This document shows, piece after piece, positions 8,046-57,815 of a stretch of DNA of 64,000 bases (the stretch's first letter is position 1; every line of letters begins with the position of its first letter). Source of the DNA: an uncultured Bacteroidales bacterium (GTDB taxonomy: Bacteria > Bacteroidota > Bacteroidia > Bacteroidales > Bacteroidaceae); the NCBI GenBank assembly GCA_902801325.1, contig CADCHQ010000001.1:248001-312000 (forward strand), given 5' to 3'. A program made the position numbers and the translations under genes. Below the pieces are notes generated by a model that saw only the letters and a list, made by a program, of their open reading frames with translations, was not told where the DNA came from and did not search any database.

Positions 8046-8078
8046 TAATCGATGAGGCTTAGGCCTGTGGTAAAACGA

Positions 8079-8345
8079 ATATAGGTTCGAGGCTCATCGT
8101 AATCGGACGCAAAGCTACGCTTGCGTAGAGAAACGGAGCAAGAACATAGGTTCGAGGTTTGTCGAATGCAGGTTCGAGGCGTACCGAATATAGGTTCGAA
8201 GCATATCGAACCTAGGCTCGGGGCCTGTCGAACCTAAGGTGCAAAATAATAAGGCCTAAGGCGTTCGGACGGAAGCCCTCAGGTCCTCTCGAATAAGGCC
8301 TTAGGTCCTCCTTTGTAAGACCTAAGGCTTCCTTGTCGAAGGCTT
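8079..8345. repeat. 22-bp-phased repeat array (array A) in the gap before susC
   Basis: The 430-bp gap between the YbjQ gene and susC contains no gene. It is filled by degenerate units with the core AGGTTCGA(G/A)G at 8083, 8148, 8170 and 8192 and AGGCTCGGGG at 8214; the last four are exactly 22 bp apart. The following 100 bp carries CCTTAGG/CCTAAGG-type units (for example at 8261 and 8300), the same second motif seen in array B. A palindrome-centred dispersed repeat (8096-8146) interrupts it between the first two units. Confidence 0.85.
8096..8146 (-). repeat. Dispersed palindrome-centred repeat, copy 1
   Basis: On the minus strand this reads TTCTTGCTCC, a short gap, TACGCAAGCGTAG, a gap, TCCGATTACGA. 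The same arrangement recurs at 20938-20990 and, more diverged, at 23816-23857 and 57126-57172. The core CTACGCTTGCGTAG is a perfect 14-bp palindrome here. No open reading frame is associated. I do not recognise the family. Confidence 0.7.
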
Positions 8346-8417
8346 ATGCCTTCACCCGCGCACACCTTTTCCGAAAAGTTTCCAGACAAAAGTTTGTTTT
8401 TACCTTATTAATACTTG

Positions 8418-13643: not shown

Positions 13644-16600
13644 ATGAAAAAGATTATTTTTCTCTCTGTAATTGCTGCCTTCTGCTTTGGTAGTGTGCAG
13701 GCTCAGGAGTACGACCCCTCCGCTTCGCGTGACATCTTTGATTTCTCGCATTTCGGTGAGAGTACTGTATTGGACCTCTTTTACAAGGCTCAGCAGGCTG
13801 GCCGTGAATTCCCAACTATCGAGGAATTCGAAGCTGCAGGTATTAGTGGGATGGATTTAGAGTTTGCTCGTTCACATGTGCGTCCCCGTCCTATCATTGA
13901 TGATCAGGCCAACCAACTTGTAGATGGCGTTAAGAACACTCGTCGCCTGTGGATGAACCTTCCTATGGGTACAGCCAAGGGCATCGGTGGCTATCCTGGT
14001 ACCAATGTGGGTGATGACACTTATTCTATTTGGAACTACACTCATCTGTTTGGTGCATGGAATCATGGATTGTTCCAAGCTCCTGGTTGCTGGATAGATG
14101 CCGCTCACCAGAATGGTACTGATATCTTTACGGGTATCAAGTTCTTCGAGTCATGGACCCCCGGCAGCGGTGATGGAGCCTATAGTAAACTTATCACAGA
14201 GAAGAATGCCGATGGTACATTCAAGTATGTTAAGCCCCTTATCAGTGCATTGCAATTCTATGGTGCAGATGGTATCAACTACAACTGGGAGGATGGTTCC
14301 TACAGTGATGCCGACATTGTGGCTTTCCACAAGGCACTATACAAGGAGGCTGAGGCTCGTGGCTTCAATAATTTCCACATAGGTCTGTATACAAACGTTT
14401 CCACGCTGACAGCTAGTAATGCCAACGCACTTTTCGGCAATAGCGAAGGCCGCACAGCCGACACCTTCCTTAACTATTCGGCCAACAATTTCATATCAAG
14501 TATGGCTATGCGTAGTTCAGAAACAGCTGCAATGAATGCTATGGGCACAACCGACGGCCTTTACTGTGGCACATGGATCGTAACCATGAACCGTAGCTGG
14601 ACCAACCTTGCAGGGCGCGACATCGGCGCCGTATTGTGGGGTGAACATGCTATGAGCCGCTTCTACAGCAACAATACAGGTCGCGACCCCAATGAGTTCC
14701 AGACAAACTACCAGAACCTTCTTGAGCGTGCTGTATCAGGTGGTAATCGTAATCCAGCTGATCGTCCTAAAATGAGTAATACTGGAAATGAATGGGCATG
14801 GAGTGGTACTACACCTCCTCTCTCAAAATTCGGAGGTTTGGCAACTTACTTCCCCGAACGCTCAGCCATTCAGGGCAAGCTTCCTTTCCACACCTATTTT
14901 AATATAGGTCTTGGTGGTGTGTACACCTATAAAGGTAAGCAGACACATGGCAATTGGTATAATATGTCCACTCAAGACATTGTTCCCACCTATCGTTGGC
15001 TGCAGTACAACGAAGGGACCACTACACCTGTTGCCATCATCAGCCCCGAATTTACAATTGAGGATGCTTATATGGGTGGCTCGTGCTTGCGTCTCACAGG
15101 CCTAGCTAACGGCTCTGCCGACATCATCCTCTTTCGCACGAAGCTGACAGGAAACTCGGGTACTCCCTATGCTAAGATTGCCGTGAAGACCGGTAAGGAA
15201 GGCGAGAACGAGACAGGTCTCAGTCTTATCGTCAAGGTTGGCTCTGACTGGAAGGAGTATCCTGTAGGTGCTACGACAAATAAGACTTGGGAAGAGAAGA
15301 CCATTAAACTCGATGGTATTGGAGGTTCTGACCAGATAGACTTTATTGGTATCCGTATTAAGGATGTCACACCTGACTACAAGCTATTCCTTGGCGAGAT
15401 ACAGGTTAATGATGATGTGAAAAGTGAACCCGCAGCCATCAAGGAGATTACTGCCGAAGTGAAGGAAGAGACTAGCAGCAGCATGAGTGTGAAACTCAAC
15501 TGGAGTCTCGACAAGGAGCTCGGCAAGTATGGTTTGGTTTACAATGATGAAGCCAACATCGACCACTTTGAAGTTCTCTATAAGGATGGTGAAAATGGTC
15601 GTGTCAGCGTTGTTGGCCATGTGCTGGCTTGGTCTGCTTTCGTAGGTCAGCGTACCCTGACAGCAGAAGAACAGCCCTACTTTGGCGTGCGTGCAGTAGG
15701 CACCGACCTCAAGACTTATTCCAAACCTATGTGGATTGCCGTAGCACGTAGTACCAATGTCCCCCAAAAGCCCGAGAAACTTGATGGCGAAGTAGAATAT
15801 GATAAGAGTGAGATTAATACAGAGGCCGCAGGTTACGAGACAGCTATGAAGACACGTTACCTTACCACCGTCACCACCACGGGTGCCAGTGTGGAAAACA
15901 TGAATTACACAGCTGAAGGCCCCTGCTCCACTGATAGCCGCAACTATCGTGATGTAACCAAGACAGCCGTTATCAAAGCCAAGCAGGGCGACGTAATCAC
16001 CTTCGACTATAAATATTTCACCGCTGGTGATGGCCTGCAGTGGTGTATCATGAAGGGCTATGCCGATTGGGACATCAACGGGAAGTTCGACGGTTCCACC
16101 GATGAACTTATCATAGAACAAGGAACGGCAAACACCTGCAATAGCTACGAGAACACCGAGGAAGGTTCCGTAACAGGAACCCCCCTGCACGCCAACGGCT
16201 GGAGCAAGAGTCCACTCGTACCCTTCACTTTCAAGGTACCCGACGATGCCGTTCGTGGTACCACTCGCATTCGCCTAGTTTTCACCGATGCTTGGGCAGC
16301 ACATCCTGGACCTGTAGGCCTCACAGCAAAAGGCTTCTCCATAGACTTTGGAATTGAAATCAGCGGAGACAACGAAGACCGTTCTGTAGCTAAGGCCAGC
16401 GTAGACGAAGGCGAAGCCGACGAGCCCGAAGGCTTGACCGATGGCATCCGAGTAACGAAGGGCGAGGTTAGCAACGCATTTGTGGCTAATGGTAAACTGC
16501 AGTTCACTGGCGTGCAGAAGGCTTGGATTTACACGACGGACGGTAAGCTGGTTCGCTTCGTGAAAGATCCCAGCATGCTCAACACCTCCAGCTTCGCTCC

Positions 16601-16667
16601 AGGTCTCTACATCATCAAGATGCAGAACCAAGGTGTAATCCGCACACGCAAGGTGGCTATCAAGTGA
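13644..16667 (+). CDS. Secreted GH85-like endo-beta-N-acetylglucosaminidase with C-terminal sorting-type tail
   Basis: The 1007-residue protein carries a signal peptide (MKKIIFLSVIAAFCFGSVQA). A (beta/alpha)8-type region (about 80-460) includes GADGINYNWEDG; its D-G-x-x-x-N-x-E pattern matches the GH85 catalytic signature, giving Asn214 and Glu216 as the expected substrate-assisted pair. GH85 enzymes cut the chitobiose core of N-glycans. Downstream are beta-sandwich and fibronectin-like segments (about 470-710), a further beta domain, and a terminal roughly 70-residue domain (..IYTTDGKLV..APGLYIIKM..RTRKVAIK) resembling T9SS type A sorting domains. It is the third gene of the SusC-SusD locus. 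The family call rests on the motif and overall layout; a search would settle it. Confidence 0.75.
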   Translation: MKKIIFLSVIAAFCFGSVQAQEYDPSASRDIFDFSHFGESTVLDLFYKAQQAGREFPTIEEFEAAGISGMDLEFARSHVRPRPIIDDQANQLVDGVKNTRRLWMNLPMGTAKGIGGYPGTNVGDDTYSIWNYTHLFGAWNHGLFQAPGCWIDAAHQNGTDIFTGIKFFESWTPGSGDGAYSKLITEKNADGTFKYVKPLISALQFYGADGINYNWEDGSYSDADIVAFHKALYKEAEARGFNNFHIGLYTNVSTLTASNANALFGNSEGRTADTFLNYSANNFISSMAMRSSETAAMNAMGTTDGLYCGTWIVTMNRSWTNLAGRDIGAVLWGEHAMSRFYSNNTGRDPNEFQTNYQNLLERAVSGGNRNPADRPKMSNTGNEWAWSGTTPPLSKFGGLATYFPERSAIQGKLPFHTYFNIGLGGVYTYKGKQTHGNWYNMSTQDIVPTYRWLQYNEGTTTPVAIISPEFTIEDAYMGGSCLRLTGLANGSADIILFRTKLTGNSGTPYAKIAVKTGKEGENETGLSLIVKVGSDWKEYPVGATTNKTWEEKTIKLDGIGGSDQIDFIGIRIKDVTPDYKLFLGEIQVNDDVKSEPAAIKEITAEVKEETSSSMSVKLNWSLDKELGKYGLVYNDEANIDHFEVLYKDGENGRVSVVGHVLAWSAFVGQRTLTAEEQPYFGVRAVGTDLKTYSKPMWIAVARSTNVPQKPEKLDGEVEYDKSEINTEAAGYETAMKTRYLTTVTTTGASVENMNYTAEGPCSTDSRNYRDVTKTAVIKAKQGDVITFDYKYFTAGDGLQWCIMKGYADWDINGKFDGSTDELIIEQGTANTCNSYENTEEGSVTGTPLHANGWSKSPLVPFTFKVPDDAVRGTTRIRLVFTDAWAAHPGPVGLTAKGFSIDFGIEISGDNEDRSVAKASVDEGEADEPEGLTDGIRVTKGEVSNAFVANGKLQFTGVQKAWIYTTDGKLVRFVKDPSMLNTSSFAPGLYIIKMQNQGVIRTRKVAIK

Positions 16668-16783: not shown

Positions 16784-16822
16784 GCGAGGCTGCAACCCAT
16801 CGGGATTGCGGCCTCGCTTTTT
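16784..16822 (+). terminator. Rho-independent terminator after the GH85 gene
   Basis: GCGAGGC (16784-16790) pairs with GCCTCGC (16811-16817); the stem extends through TGCAA/TTGCG and is followed by a run of five T. It would end the SusC-SusD-GH85 transcript, 117 bp after its stop. Confidence 0.85.
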
Positions 16823-16847
16823 CATGCCCTTGCCTTTTTGCGATAAG

Positions 16848-17160
16848 ACTTAGGTCTTTTTCATTAAGCCTTAGGCCTTCCGCCCGAAAGCCTTAGGCCT
16901 AATTTTTTACACCTTAGGTTTAATGAAACTCGAACCTATGTTCATTGTACTTCGAACCTATATTCGTTGTACTTCGAACCTATATTCGTTGAGCCTCGAA
17001 CCTATATTCGTTGAGCTTCGAACCTATATTCGTTGAGCTTCGAACCTATATTCGATTGACTTCGAACCTTAGGCCTTCCGAGATAACCCCTTAGGCCTTC
17101 CGGAATAATCCCTAAGGCCTTCTGAAATAATCCCTAAGGGTTCCAGAATGACGCCTAAGC
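16848..17160. repeat. 22-bp-phased repeat array (array B), the longest
   Basis: The 508-bp gap between the convergent GH85 and rfbB genes holds a terminator and then about 15 consecutive units. CTTAGG-type units start at 16848, 16869, 16891 and 16912. TCGAACC units start at 16930, 16952, 16974, 16996, 17018, 17040 and 17062, all exactly 22 bp apart. CCTTAGG/CCTAAGG units follow at 17067, 17089, 17111, 17133 and 17154. Within each TCGAACC unit, CGAA and TTCG form a small inverted repeat. There are no variable spacers and no gene. Confidence 0.9.
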
Positions 17161-17175
17161 CTTTTGGGCTTCGGA

Positions 17176-28114: not shown

Positions 28115-28380
28115 GTTTAACGTTTAATGTTTAACGTTTAACGGGGAGAATATGTTTTTATCATTATTCATTATAATTTAGCGCAGCGTAAATAGGGCGT
28201 GCGGACTAAGTGAGTCTTACTTCAACCGCGATCCTTTGGATTACTTCAGATTCACAATTTCCGCACGCGCCTTTTTAAATAATTCATTAGTCACAATTAT
28301 TCCCCTGACTACTCCCCTCGTTAACAGAGAGGGACTGGGGGTGAGTCCAATTCTTAACTCTTCATTCTTAATTCTTAATT
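28115..28380. repeat. Gap with heptamer tracts and a long-range hairpin
   Basis: The 268 bp after nadB hold TTTAACG-type heptamers (28115-28142), a 9-bp inverted repeat GCGTGCGGA/TCCGCACGC (28197-28205 with 28260-28268) followed by T5 that could terminate nadB, a GAGGGACTGGGGG/CCCCTGAC palindromic tract (28303-28345), and CTTAATT-type heptamers (28350-28380) running up to the TTG start of the next gene. Confidence 0.6.
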
Positions 28381-33119: not shown

Positions 33120-36854
<3,735 letters not shown>

Positions 36855-40346: not shown

Positions 40347-40404
40347 GAAAATGAGAGAATAAAGTACGTCAAATCAAGTGGACGCTTATTCTCTCATTTT
40401 TATA
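40347..40404 (+). terminator. Terminator of the AGCS-mtnN operon
   Basis: AAAATGAGAGAATAA and TTATTCTCTCATTTTT form a 15-bp stem with a T-rich end directly after the mtnN stop. Confidence 0.9.
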
Positions 40405-40421
40405 CCCTTATTCGTTATCCA

Positions 40422-40545
40422 TCGAACGCTTATTCGACGTGCATCGAACCCTTGTTCGTTGTACATCGAACCTAGGTCCATTTATTTTGTGCCTAAGGCC
40501 TTCGGACAATAAGCCTTAAGTCCTCGGGCAATAGCCTTAGACCCA
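40422..40545. repeat. 22-bp-phased repeat array (array C)
   Basis: TCGAAC units start at 40422, 40444 and 40466 and CCTAAGG/CCTTAAG/CCTTAGA units at 40492, 40514 and 40535, the same order of two motif types and the same 22-bp period as array B. It lies between convergent mtnN and the RecQ-tail-like gene. Confidence 0.85.
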
Positions 40546-40585
40546 TGGGGCAATAAATAAGGTTTAAGAGTTTTGTTTATGGTTG

Positions 40586-47877: not shown

Positions 47878-47965
47878 CCTCGCGCGTGCGTGATACCTAA
47901 TTATATGTAACGCACGTCATACTGAACAATTGTCCCCTTTTCATTAAGCCTATGCTCGAGGCGCC

Positions 47966-48045
47966 TCGAACCTGCATTCGATCCACTTCGAACCTATGTT
48001 CAATGAGCCTCGAATATAGGTTCGATTTTCATCGTACTTTTTTCC
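47966..48045. repeat. 22-bp-phased repeat array (array D)
   Basis: TCGAACC, TCGAACC, TCGAATA and TCGTAC start at 47966, 47988, 48010 and 48032, exactly 22 bp apart, in the gap between convergent rodA and the MerR gene. CGAA and TTCG alternate about every 10-12 bp. Confidence 0.85.
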
Positions 48046-48093
48046 TAGTTTTCTTGCTATAAACAATCTGCGAACTAACCCTTAGGCAACAAT

Positions 48094-48509: not shown

Positions 48510-48569
48510 CAAAGATACAAAACAATTGACAATTGACAATTGATAATTGATAATTATTTTGTAATTTTG
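48510..48569. promoter_or_regulatory. Divergent promoters of the MerR gene and alaS built around a heptamer tract
   Basis: TATCTTTG on the minus strand (48510-48517) and TAATTTTG on the plus strand (48562-48569) flank five heptamers (AACAATT, GACAATT x2, GATAATT x2; 48521-48555). CAATTG is palindromic, so each unit offers TTG on both strands; the TTG at 48540-48542 is 19 bp from the alaS -7 element. Confidence 0.65.
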
Positions 48570-56022: not shown

Positions 56023-56667
56023 ATGAAGAAAGTTTTTCATGCCGCCCTGTTCGACCTCGATGGTGTCATACTGGACACTGAAGGTCAGTACACCCGTTTT
56101 TGGGGTGAGATGGGGCGTAGGTATGTGCCTTCCGTTCCCGATTTTGCCCAGCGCATAAAAGGTCAAACCCTTTTGCAGATGTTCGATGCGTGGTTTCCCG
56201 AACCTGATGTCCAGCGCGACATAAAAAGGCTATTGGACGAATTCGAAATGCAGATGACCTATCCTTATATTAAAGGTGCGCACGCGTACGTGAAGGCTTT
56301 GCATGAAAAGGGTGTGCCTACGGCGATTGTCACCAGCTCGAATCTTTTGAAGATGGAGAATGTCTATCGCCTGCGTCCCGAACTTAAGGAACTCTTCACG
56401 CTTATACTCACCAGTGAGGACTTCAAGGCAAGCAAGCCCGATCCCGATTGCTATCTGTGTGCGGCCCAACGGCTTGGGGTGCCCATAAACGAGTGCGTGG
56501 TGTTTGAGGATAGTATGAACGGACTTCGAGCTGGACGTGCTAGTGGGGCGTATGTAGTAGGCTTGGCTACCACGAATCCGAAGGAAACGATAGCTCCCTT
56601 GTGCGATGAAGTGGTAGATGACTTCGAAACATTCCCCCTCAAGGAGGAGATGGAGGGGGTCCTATGA
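56023..56667 (+). CDS. HAD-superfamily phosphatase/phosphoglucomutase-like protein
   Basis: The 214-residue protein has the HAD motifs LFDLDGVILDTE (nucleophile Asp with the DxD acid), TSSN, and the SKPDPDCY and VFEDSMNGLRAG blocks of the beta-phosphoglucomutase-like subfamily. It removes or moves phosphate on a small sugar phosphate; the substrate is not readable. It overlaps pdxB by four bases, so its substrate may lie near the erythronate-phosphate or vitamin B6 pathway, but this is only an inference. Confidence 0.88.
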   Translation: MKKVFHAALFDLDGVILDTEGQYTRFWGEMGRRYVPSVPDFAQRIKGQTLLQMFDAWFPEPDVQRDIKRLLDEFEMQMTYPYIKGAHAYVKALHEKGVPTAIVTSSNLLKMENVYRLRPELKELFTLILTSEDFKASKPDPDCYLCAAQRLGVPINECVVFEDSMNGLRAGRASGAYVVGLATTNPKETIAPLCDEVVDDFETFPLKEEMEGVL

Positions 56668-57815
56668 AGCTCGTCATCGACGATAAGATTCCGTTCATTC
56701 AAGGTCAGGCAGAACGCGTGGCCGATGAGGTCGTTTATCTGCCAGTAAGCAAGATTGGTCCTGACGATGTGCGAGATGCCGATGCGTTGATAGTCCGTAC
56801 ACGAACCCATTGCAATCGTCAATTGCTCGAGGGCAGTCGAGTGCGATTCATCGCTACTGCCACCATTGGGTTCGACCATTTGGATACGGATTATCTGAAC
56901 GAAGCCGGAATTGTGTGGACCAATTGCCCAGGGTGCAATGCGACTTCAGTGGCTCAGTATGTCAGGAATGCCCTTATCGAAGCCGAAAGGGAAGGGATTG
57001 TAAAGCTTAGCGAAGCCTCGCTTGGGATCGTTGGCTATGGGCATGTGGGTCGTGCCGTTTGCGAGTCCTTGCGCCCTTATGTAAGGGAAATATTGCTCAA
57101 TGATCCACCGCTTGAGAATGAAGAATTCTTGCTCCGACAAGCTACGCAAGCGTCTCCTAACGTCGCCGAGCGAAGGATGAAGAATGAAGGATTAAGGATT
57201 AAGGGTGAGGAATTGGCTATTGCTTTTGAGGAAGAAAAGAGCGGAAACCCTGATACTTCACTTTTCACTCATCATTCTACGTTCAAATCACTCGCCGATC
57301 TCGCCTCTTCTTGCGACATCATCTCCTTTCACACGCCACTGACTGCCGAAGGGCTTTATCCTACATACCATTTGGCAAATGAACAATTCTTCCAAAGCCT
57401 AAAGCGAAAGCCCTTGCTCATCAACGCAGCACGAGGAGGAGTGGTCGATGAGGCGGCTTTGCTCGATGCGATGGACAAAGGTCTGGTTCGCCAAGCGATT
57501 ATCGACACATGGGAGGGAGAGCCCGCAATCAATGGGGCGTTATTAAGTAAAGTGTTCATCGGAACGCCTCATATAGCTGGCTATTCTGCGGACGGGAAAG
57601 CCAACGCTACACTCATGGCACTTCGAGCCCTTGTTCGATGGCAATCGAGCCTAGGTTCAATTGACATCGAACCTATGTTCGATATTCAGCCTCCCTTGGC
57701 TCAACCTGAACGAACCGGTATTTTCTATTCGCCTACAAGCGATTCCGATCAACTGAAAGAAAGTCCGCAAGATTTCGAGAATTTGCGTGGAAACTACCTT
57801 TTACGCAGAGAATAA
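56664..57815 (+). CDS. pdxB: Erythronate-4-phosphate dehydrogenase, with repeat-derived insertions
   Basis: The 383-residue protein has the PdxB layout: TATIGFDHLDTDYL, the NAD-binding GIVGYGHVGRAVCESLRP block, and the INAARGGVVDEAALL and DTWEGEP catalytic segments. It oxidises 4-phosphoerythronate in the DXP-independent pyridoxal phosphate route. Between residues about 154 and 212 an insertion carries a dispersed palindromic repeat (57126-57172), six GAAGGAT-type heptamers (57172-57213) and CACTTTTCACTC-type sequence; the C-terminal region has three in-frame 22-bp units (57623-57688). Homologues have a short loop at the first site. The core residues remain, so the enzyme may be active. Confidence 0.9.
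   Translation: MKLVIDDKIPFIQGQAERVADEVVYLPVSKIGPDDVRDADALIVRTRTHCNRQLLEGSRVRFIATATIGFDHLDTDYLNEAGIVWTNCPGCNATSVAQYVRNALIEAEREGIVKLSEASLGIVGYGHVGRAVCESLRPYVREILLNDPPLENEEFLLRQATQASPNVAERRMKNEGLRIKGEELAIAFEEEKSGNPDTSLFTHHSTFKSLADLASSCDIISFHTPLTAEGLYPTYHLANEQFFQSLKRKPLLINAARGGVVDEAALLDAMDKGLVRQAIIDTWEGEPAINGALLSKVFIGTPHIAGYSADGKANATLMALRALVRWQSSLGSIDIEPMFDIQPPLAQPERTGIFYSPTSDSDQLKESPQDFENLRGNYLLRRE
57126..57172 (+). repeat. Dispersed palindrome-centred repeat inside pdxB, copy 4
   Basis: TTCTTGCTCC, a 6-bp gap, then CTACGCAAGCGT, as in the copies at 8096-8146 and 20938-20990, but read as codons of PdxB. Confidence 0.65.
57172..57213 (+). repeat. In-frame heptamer tract (6 units, 42 bp) inside pdxB
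   Basis: GAAGGAT, GAAGAAT, GAAGGAT, TAAGGAT, TAAGGGT, GAGGAAT at exact 7-bp steps; 42 bp, 14 codons, the same length as two tracts in the GH92-GH28 gene. Confidence 0.88.
57623..57688 (+). repeat. 22-bp repeat units inside pdxB (array F)
   Basis: TCGAGCC, TCGAGCC and TCGAACC start at 57623, 57645 and 57667, exactly 22 bp apart, each with a later TTCGA or TTCAA half. 3 x 22 = 66 bp keeps the frame and encodes about 22 residues near the C-terminus. Confidence 0.85.

Follow-up and report, generated by a model that had tools for sequence, protein, structure and literature searches.

Repeats normally keep their sequence and lose their register. In many species of one large Bacteroidales genus, the arrays described here keep the register and have their sequence replaced, and the question is what, if anything, holds their units in phase. 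They were noticed in a 64-kb window, the whole stretch of DNA that was analysed (positions 248001–312000 of contig C1 of genome G000, an assembly of 3.38 Mb that is 94.7% complete). That the 22-bp spacing is kept while the spelling changes suggests that the spacing is read by something. If a protein reads the pitch, the arrays would be a means, so far little studied, by which abundant gut-type bacteria organise their chromosomes or insulate transcription, and their species-specific cores would provide matched protein–DNA pairs with which changes in specificity can be studied. Without such a reader, the constant pitch would require a mechanism of copying that is not yet known.

Arrays of the window and of the genome

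Array B (16842–17169; like the other arrays, annotated without strand) consists of ∼15 units of 22 bp, belonging to two sequence types that flank or interleave one another in one shared phase. Its core is formed by seven TCGAACC-type units at an exact 22-bp pitch (16930–17069), and the seven TCGAACC motifs of the original prediction were indeed found at 16930, 16952, 16974, 16996, 17018, 17040, and 17062. CCTTAGG-type parts lie on either side (16848–16920 and 17067–17165); the CCTTAGG/CCTAAGG cores expected at 17067, 17089, 17111, and 17133 are in place and continue the 22-bp phase, and the CCTTAGGCCTTCCG-type units at 17067–17139 are in phase with the 22-bp TCGAACC units that precede them. 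TRF assigned a period of 22 to both stretches, with 6.4 copies and 92% match for 16930–17069, and 3.3 copies and 88% match for 17067–17139. The units are contiguous and, by inspection, devoid of CRISPR-type spacers, which rules out a CRISPR array.

Related arrays had been proposed at 8079–8345, 40422–40545, and 47966–48045, and TRF, sequence inspection, and the lag scan all showed them to be real. Array A (8060–8348) starts with units in reverse orientation (ATAGGTTCGA), followed by CCTNAGG units; array C (40379–40559) contains TCGAAC(GCTT/CCTT)RTTCG units, followed by CCTAAGG-type units; and array D (47946–48051) consists of three to four TCGAAC-type units with convergent gene calls on both sides, and has an orthologous array in genome G041 (see below). 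A fifth one, array E (∼57610–57710), had been overlooked. Its three units lie within a pdxB-like gene (56664–57815, + strand), in the part that encodes the C-terminus, and G041 carries an array at the equivalent place; in both species the three units are in phase and the reading frame is kept. Because the aligned segment is no longer than in solved homologues, it replaces residues and does not add any. Thus, the notion that the arrays fill intergenic regions applies to most of them (20 of the 21 lag-22 sites on contig C1, according to simple codon-model gene calls, of which single ones may be wrong) but not to array E.

Two other kinds of repeats were observed in the window. At ∼8099–8141, a 43-nt insert with a hairpin (GTAATCGGACGCAAAGCTACGCTTGCGTAGAGAAACGGAGCAA) interrupts array A; it may be a small mobile palindrome in its own right. 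The orthologous array of G041 is without it, and similar copies adjoin other G041 arrays (L210 ∼13100; L211 ∼11985). Intergenic 7-bp tandem repeats (GTTTAAC, AGTTGAG, ATTGACC, ACAATTG), present at 28115–28143, 33790–33835, 34435–34472, and 48522–48555, are a separate class, for which contig C1 contains 28 sites at lag 7.

The period is not confined to the window. When a site was defined as a 44-bp window with at least 28 self-matches, the 395.7-kb contig C1 contained 21 sites at lag 22 and 16 at lag 44, compared with 0–2 sites for each of the other lags from 16 to 39, which rules out an artefact of chance or low complexity. With array B as the query, BLASTN returned matches at 66 places on many contigs. 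Extrapolated from contig C1, not counted, G000 would contain ∼180 or more arrays. The original observation is therefore confirmed, and its extent is larger than first noted.

A palindromic core and a linker of fixed length

The unit is composed of a palindromic core of 14–16 bp and a linker of 6–8 nt, as derived from seeds defined by one arm only. The arms of the core are conserved, with a dyad score of 0.61 compared with 0.50 in column-permuted units; coupling within the core is weak, and the core-dyad coupling of G000/G041 (z = 5.2) is given no weight because out-of-phase sites are among its seeds. Neighbouring units of the G017 family never differ at the outer core positions, whereas their linker positions agree at 0.25–0.45. 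Linker positions of neighbouring units agree at ∼0.32–0.56 in G012, and the outer linker positions of the TCGAAC type at 0.43–0.59. All 78 TCGAAC linkers measure 7 nt and comprise 61 distinct sequences; thus, the linker of the clearest families is near-random in sequence and fixed in length. Its two halves do not covary, which fits a spacer, not a stem, and rules out the linker as a second hairpin.

The spacing of the cores is correspondingly strict. In G012, successive cores are 22 bp apart in 36 cases, and a single further close pair has a distance of 6 bp; with a loose TCGAAC core, 39 intervals measured 22 and 10 measured 44. A pattern with two free gaps (2–8 and 4–10) matched 65 times in G000 and 55 times in G041 (120 in total), and among the matches listed all were 28 nt long, which corresponds to a 22-bp pitch, three of the 22-bp matches having the internal TTCG displaced; the reversed pattern, used as the control, matched neither genome. 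The neutral expectation is 0.14–0.6 length changes per linker pair and 0 were observed in 39 intervals, a rough figure that is indicative only: the calculation treats the intervals as independent, with an indel-to-substitution ratio of 0.03–0.08, and units within one array share descent, so that their intervals are not independent. One and the same phase runs through different core types within a single array. Between families, the pitch is fixed for each, mostly but not universally at 22: the CCTNAGG type has 40 intervals of 22 and 5 of 21 (5/45), and inspection indicated a 23-bp pitch for the GTTAAC family in G017 and the TGTACA family in G014. “Exactly 22” is therefore an apt description of the TCGAAC type, where it holds very strictly, but not of the CCTNAGG type and the two 23-bp families, which are likewise the exceptions to a spacer constrained in length and not in sequence. 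The predicted constraint on spacing itself is supported by linkers of free sequence and fixed length, by the listed two-gap matches all being at 22 bp, and by unrelated cores sharing 22 bp.

We tentatively favour the interpretation of the arrays as operator-like sites in a fixed phase, to which putative dimeric DNA-binding proteins would bind. Each palindrome of 14–16 bp would be the expected site for one protein dimer. With a palindrome and a linker of fixed length, half-sites spaced ∼11 bp apart would point in alternating directions and dyads would recur every 22 bp, that is, about two turns, nearly on the same face of the helix, along which dimers would sit side by side, probably touching. 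The lag-22 excess (in six genomes, and in six of ten lightly sampled ones), the fixed two-gap spacing, and the conserved core compared with the variable linker argue for such sites; the two 23-bp families and the 21-bp steps of the CCTNAGG type weaken the case, as do the shared descent of units within an array and an ascertainment bias, since lag detection and patterns requiring an intact core both favour regular arrays. Paired ARG boxes bound by ArgR are tandem palindromic operators at about two helical turns, with the proteins on one face, and resemble the arrays in this respect, but operators of this type are few per genome and located in promoters, whereas the arrays occur at many loci, near 3′ ends, and with several core types. 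The iterons of the R6K plasmid origin are phased binding sites with the same 22-bp phase; they are, however, direct repeats at one origin, whereas the units here are palindromic and found at many chromosomal loci.

Inverted arms flanking a variable linker of constant length (6–8 nt) are also the geometry of tyrosine-recombinase core sites, with their central region of fixed length and free sequence, and the arrays could accordingly be rows of recombinase arm sites, for which changes in unit number between orthologous arrays would be fitting. The likeness is one of geometry only. Differing central regions hinder tyrosine recombinases from recombining two sites, and the linkers of neighbouring units do differ, which makes this explanation very improbable.

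Placement at gene 3′ ends and the level of recognition

Arrays are located near the 3′ ends of genes and are enriched between convergent ones. Convergent neighbours were found for 29 of the 85 arrays with both neighbours called (by a simple codon-model script), compared with 69 of the 419 intergenic regions that served as background (OR 2.6, p = 4e-4). Where the two genes point the same way, the median distance is 32 bp from the upstream stop codon to the array and 179 bp from the array to the next start. Orientation relative to transcription is modestly biased (15:4, p = 0.02, orthologues not removed). Were the operator-like sites occupied, such a platform after stop codons or between convergent genes might serve as a local insulator, a roadblock, or a nucleoid-organising site; we infer protein binding, the cooperativity that the original prediction suggested, and the insulating role. 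The orientation bias would be unexpected for a purely DNA-level symmetric site and weakens this interpretation.

The same placement and the same bias would suit elements acting as RNA, namely rows of short hairpins in the 3′-UTR of either strand that act as terminators, shield the ends of mRNAs, or serve as substrates of RNases. Array B indeed folds better as RNA than its shuffles (z = −5.4), and any row of palindromes would fold well as RNA. Mismatches on the sense strand are not biased towards those tolerated in RNA, G-U (50) not exceeding A-C (67), although terminators, taken as the control, discriminate poorly (76 versus 63), so that this comparison is not taken as proof. Many cores form weak hairpins (−2.3 to −5.2 kcal/mol), and RNA hairpins leave the fixed 22-nt pitch without a reason. 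Between the upstream gene (13644–16667) and array B, a strong stem-loop followed by a T run (16787–16822, + strand) looks, from sequence and folding energy, like the intrinsic terminator of that gene; array B lies beyond it and hence need not belong to the same transcript. A function as RNA is less probable: weighed together with the good folding of array B and the orientation bias, the weak core hairpins, uncoupled linkers, and preceding terminator-like stem-loop lean towards recognition at the level of DNA. A known RNA family was ruled out, as the Rfam search of the 64-kb window returned a tRNA as its sole match and none for the arrays.

Sequence turnover between species and known repeats

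For comparison between species, orthologous arrays were examined in G041 (MAG “Bacteroidaceae bacterium RGIG10155”, yak rumen); this genome probably belongs to the same genus because identical TGTACA sequences occur in G233, a listed same-genus genome. G000 and G041 are syntenic, their aligned blocks being 84% identical. The number of whole units often differs between orthologous arrays: in the ten compared, several in-array gaps are exactly 22 long, others 1–2 or of other lengths. One G000 array is missing at the equivalent place in G041. Sampled contigs contained 32 lag-22 sites in G041, 25 in G012, and 7 each in G017 and G016; the 3 sites in G003 are a weak signal, no more than at its lags 24 and 30. 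Arrays were also seen in six of ten further same-genus genomes, of which 27–40 kb each was sampled. Cores of different species bear no relation to one another (GGTTAACC and AACTTCACGTGTGAAGTT in G012, AACCAGTSACTGGTT in G017, CGACCGGTCG in G016, TTTCTGCAGCAGAAA in G022), TGTACA being another among the same-genus cores. In other species of the genus, palindromes thus recur every 22 bp although their cores are unrelated, which indicates that the pitch outlives the sequence. By inspection, several other genera of the same family have matches of 22-bp pitch in unrelated sequence; ∼230 kb sampled from other families of the order contained no array. The original prediction was open to refutation by a lack of phase conservation in related genomes, where 22-bp arrays were in fact found, or by descent from one recent duplication decaying neutrally, which is ruled out by the spread over many contigs, the whole-unit differences from G041, and the species with other cores.

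Unrelated cores at one pitch, a single phase across core types, enrichment between convergent genes, and uncoupled linkers are further support for phased sites of dimeric proteins. Several unrelated core families per genome are a difficulty, because they demand either more than one protein or a single one that recognises shape. It is conceivable, albeit doubtful, that a lineage-wide system exists in which fast-evolving putative dimeric proteins coat the phased palindromes where transcription units end, their specificity turning over while the two-turn pitch stays; this would amount to a satellite-like, protein-bound boundary element in bacteria.

In habit, the nearest known system is REP/BIME. 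REPs are 20–40 bp long, bear a tag (GTAG or CGTC), and are associated with a Y1 (RAYT) transposase, and BIMEs bind IHF and gyrase (PMC2817692, PMC3733652). Like them, the arrays are abundant extragenic palindromes, often clustered, species-specific, and near gene ends; unlike them, they are contiguous units at 22 bp. The nearest described repeat of the Bacteroidales is BrickBuilt, a minisatellite/MITE of Porphyromonas gingivalis with 19 copies of a 23-nt unit (AGAYCATARTATCCTCTCRTRTG) between a leader and a tail with IS5-type terminal inverted repeats (PMC4596501). It, too, is intergenic and made of imperfect tandem units of similar length without an Rfam match, and its copy number varies between strains as the unit number varies in the arrays. 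The arrays, however, do not conform to its 23-nt unit AGAYCATARTATCCTCTCRTRTG, having a period of 22 and a different consensus, and they differ in sequence, palindromic cores, variable linkers of fixed length, and far more loci. The claim that no described Bacteroidetes family is like the arrays must therefore be qualified, as BrickBuilt is an analogue (PMC4596501), although it differs from the arrays in sequence and structure. The literature searched, which covers few subscription journals, describes neither the array family nor 22-bp repeats in Prevotella.

The arrays might then be REP-like selfish palindromic minisatellites without host function, spreading like REP/BIME or BrickBuilt, with the pitch set by a machinery of whole-unit copying or slippage. 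More than 100 copies per genome (extrapolated), mostly extragenic, a species-specific sequence and proximity to 3′ ends as in REPs (PMC2817692), the gain or loss of whole 22-bp units in orthologous arrays, and the array missing from G041 are all consistent with this. Copying alone, however, does not predict linkers of fixed length and variable sequence, nor that families unrelated in sequence share a pitch, and Y1_Tnp (PF01797) did not score above the cut-off in G000, G041, G012, G016, G008, or G024 (incomplete genomes); hits were sub-threshold in G017 and marginal in G003. This explanation is therefore possible but ranks second, behind the operator-like sites. An REP/RAYT system in the strict sense is unlikely, given the transposase result in those six same-genus genomes and the absence, by inspection, of a GTAG/CGTC tag at the palindrome foot from the unit consensus. 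A phage origin was rejected as well: by coordinate inspection, matches of array patterns in viral contigs are not of 22-bp length, and the GGTTAACC pattern matched one viral contig only, off phase.

Repeats of other kinds were encountered in the same lineages. In G041, TTAACC-type short repeats (L200 ∼16600–16660) occupy the orthologous place of the array that G000 has at C1:312285. Same-genus genomes G016, G018, G252, and G269 contain 8-bp tandem repeats of the GTTAACAA/GTTAACAC type. In G043 (Bacteroidaceae RUI084), near-identical dispersed copies of TCGAACGTTTGTTCGAACATGATCGAAC occur on many contigs and resemble a single dispersed element more than they do diverged arrays. Genus g46 (G096, G115, G147, G176) has rows of TTTAACC-linked hairpins at a pitch of 20–24 nt, the stems of which vary from unit to unit yet stay complementary (GCACC..GGTGC, GCTAC..GTAGC, GAAGC..GCTTC).
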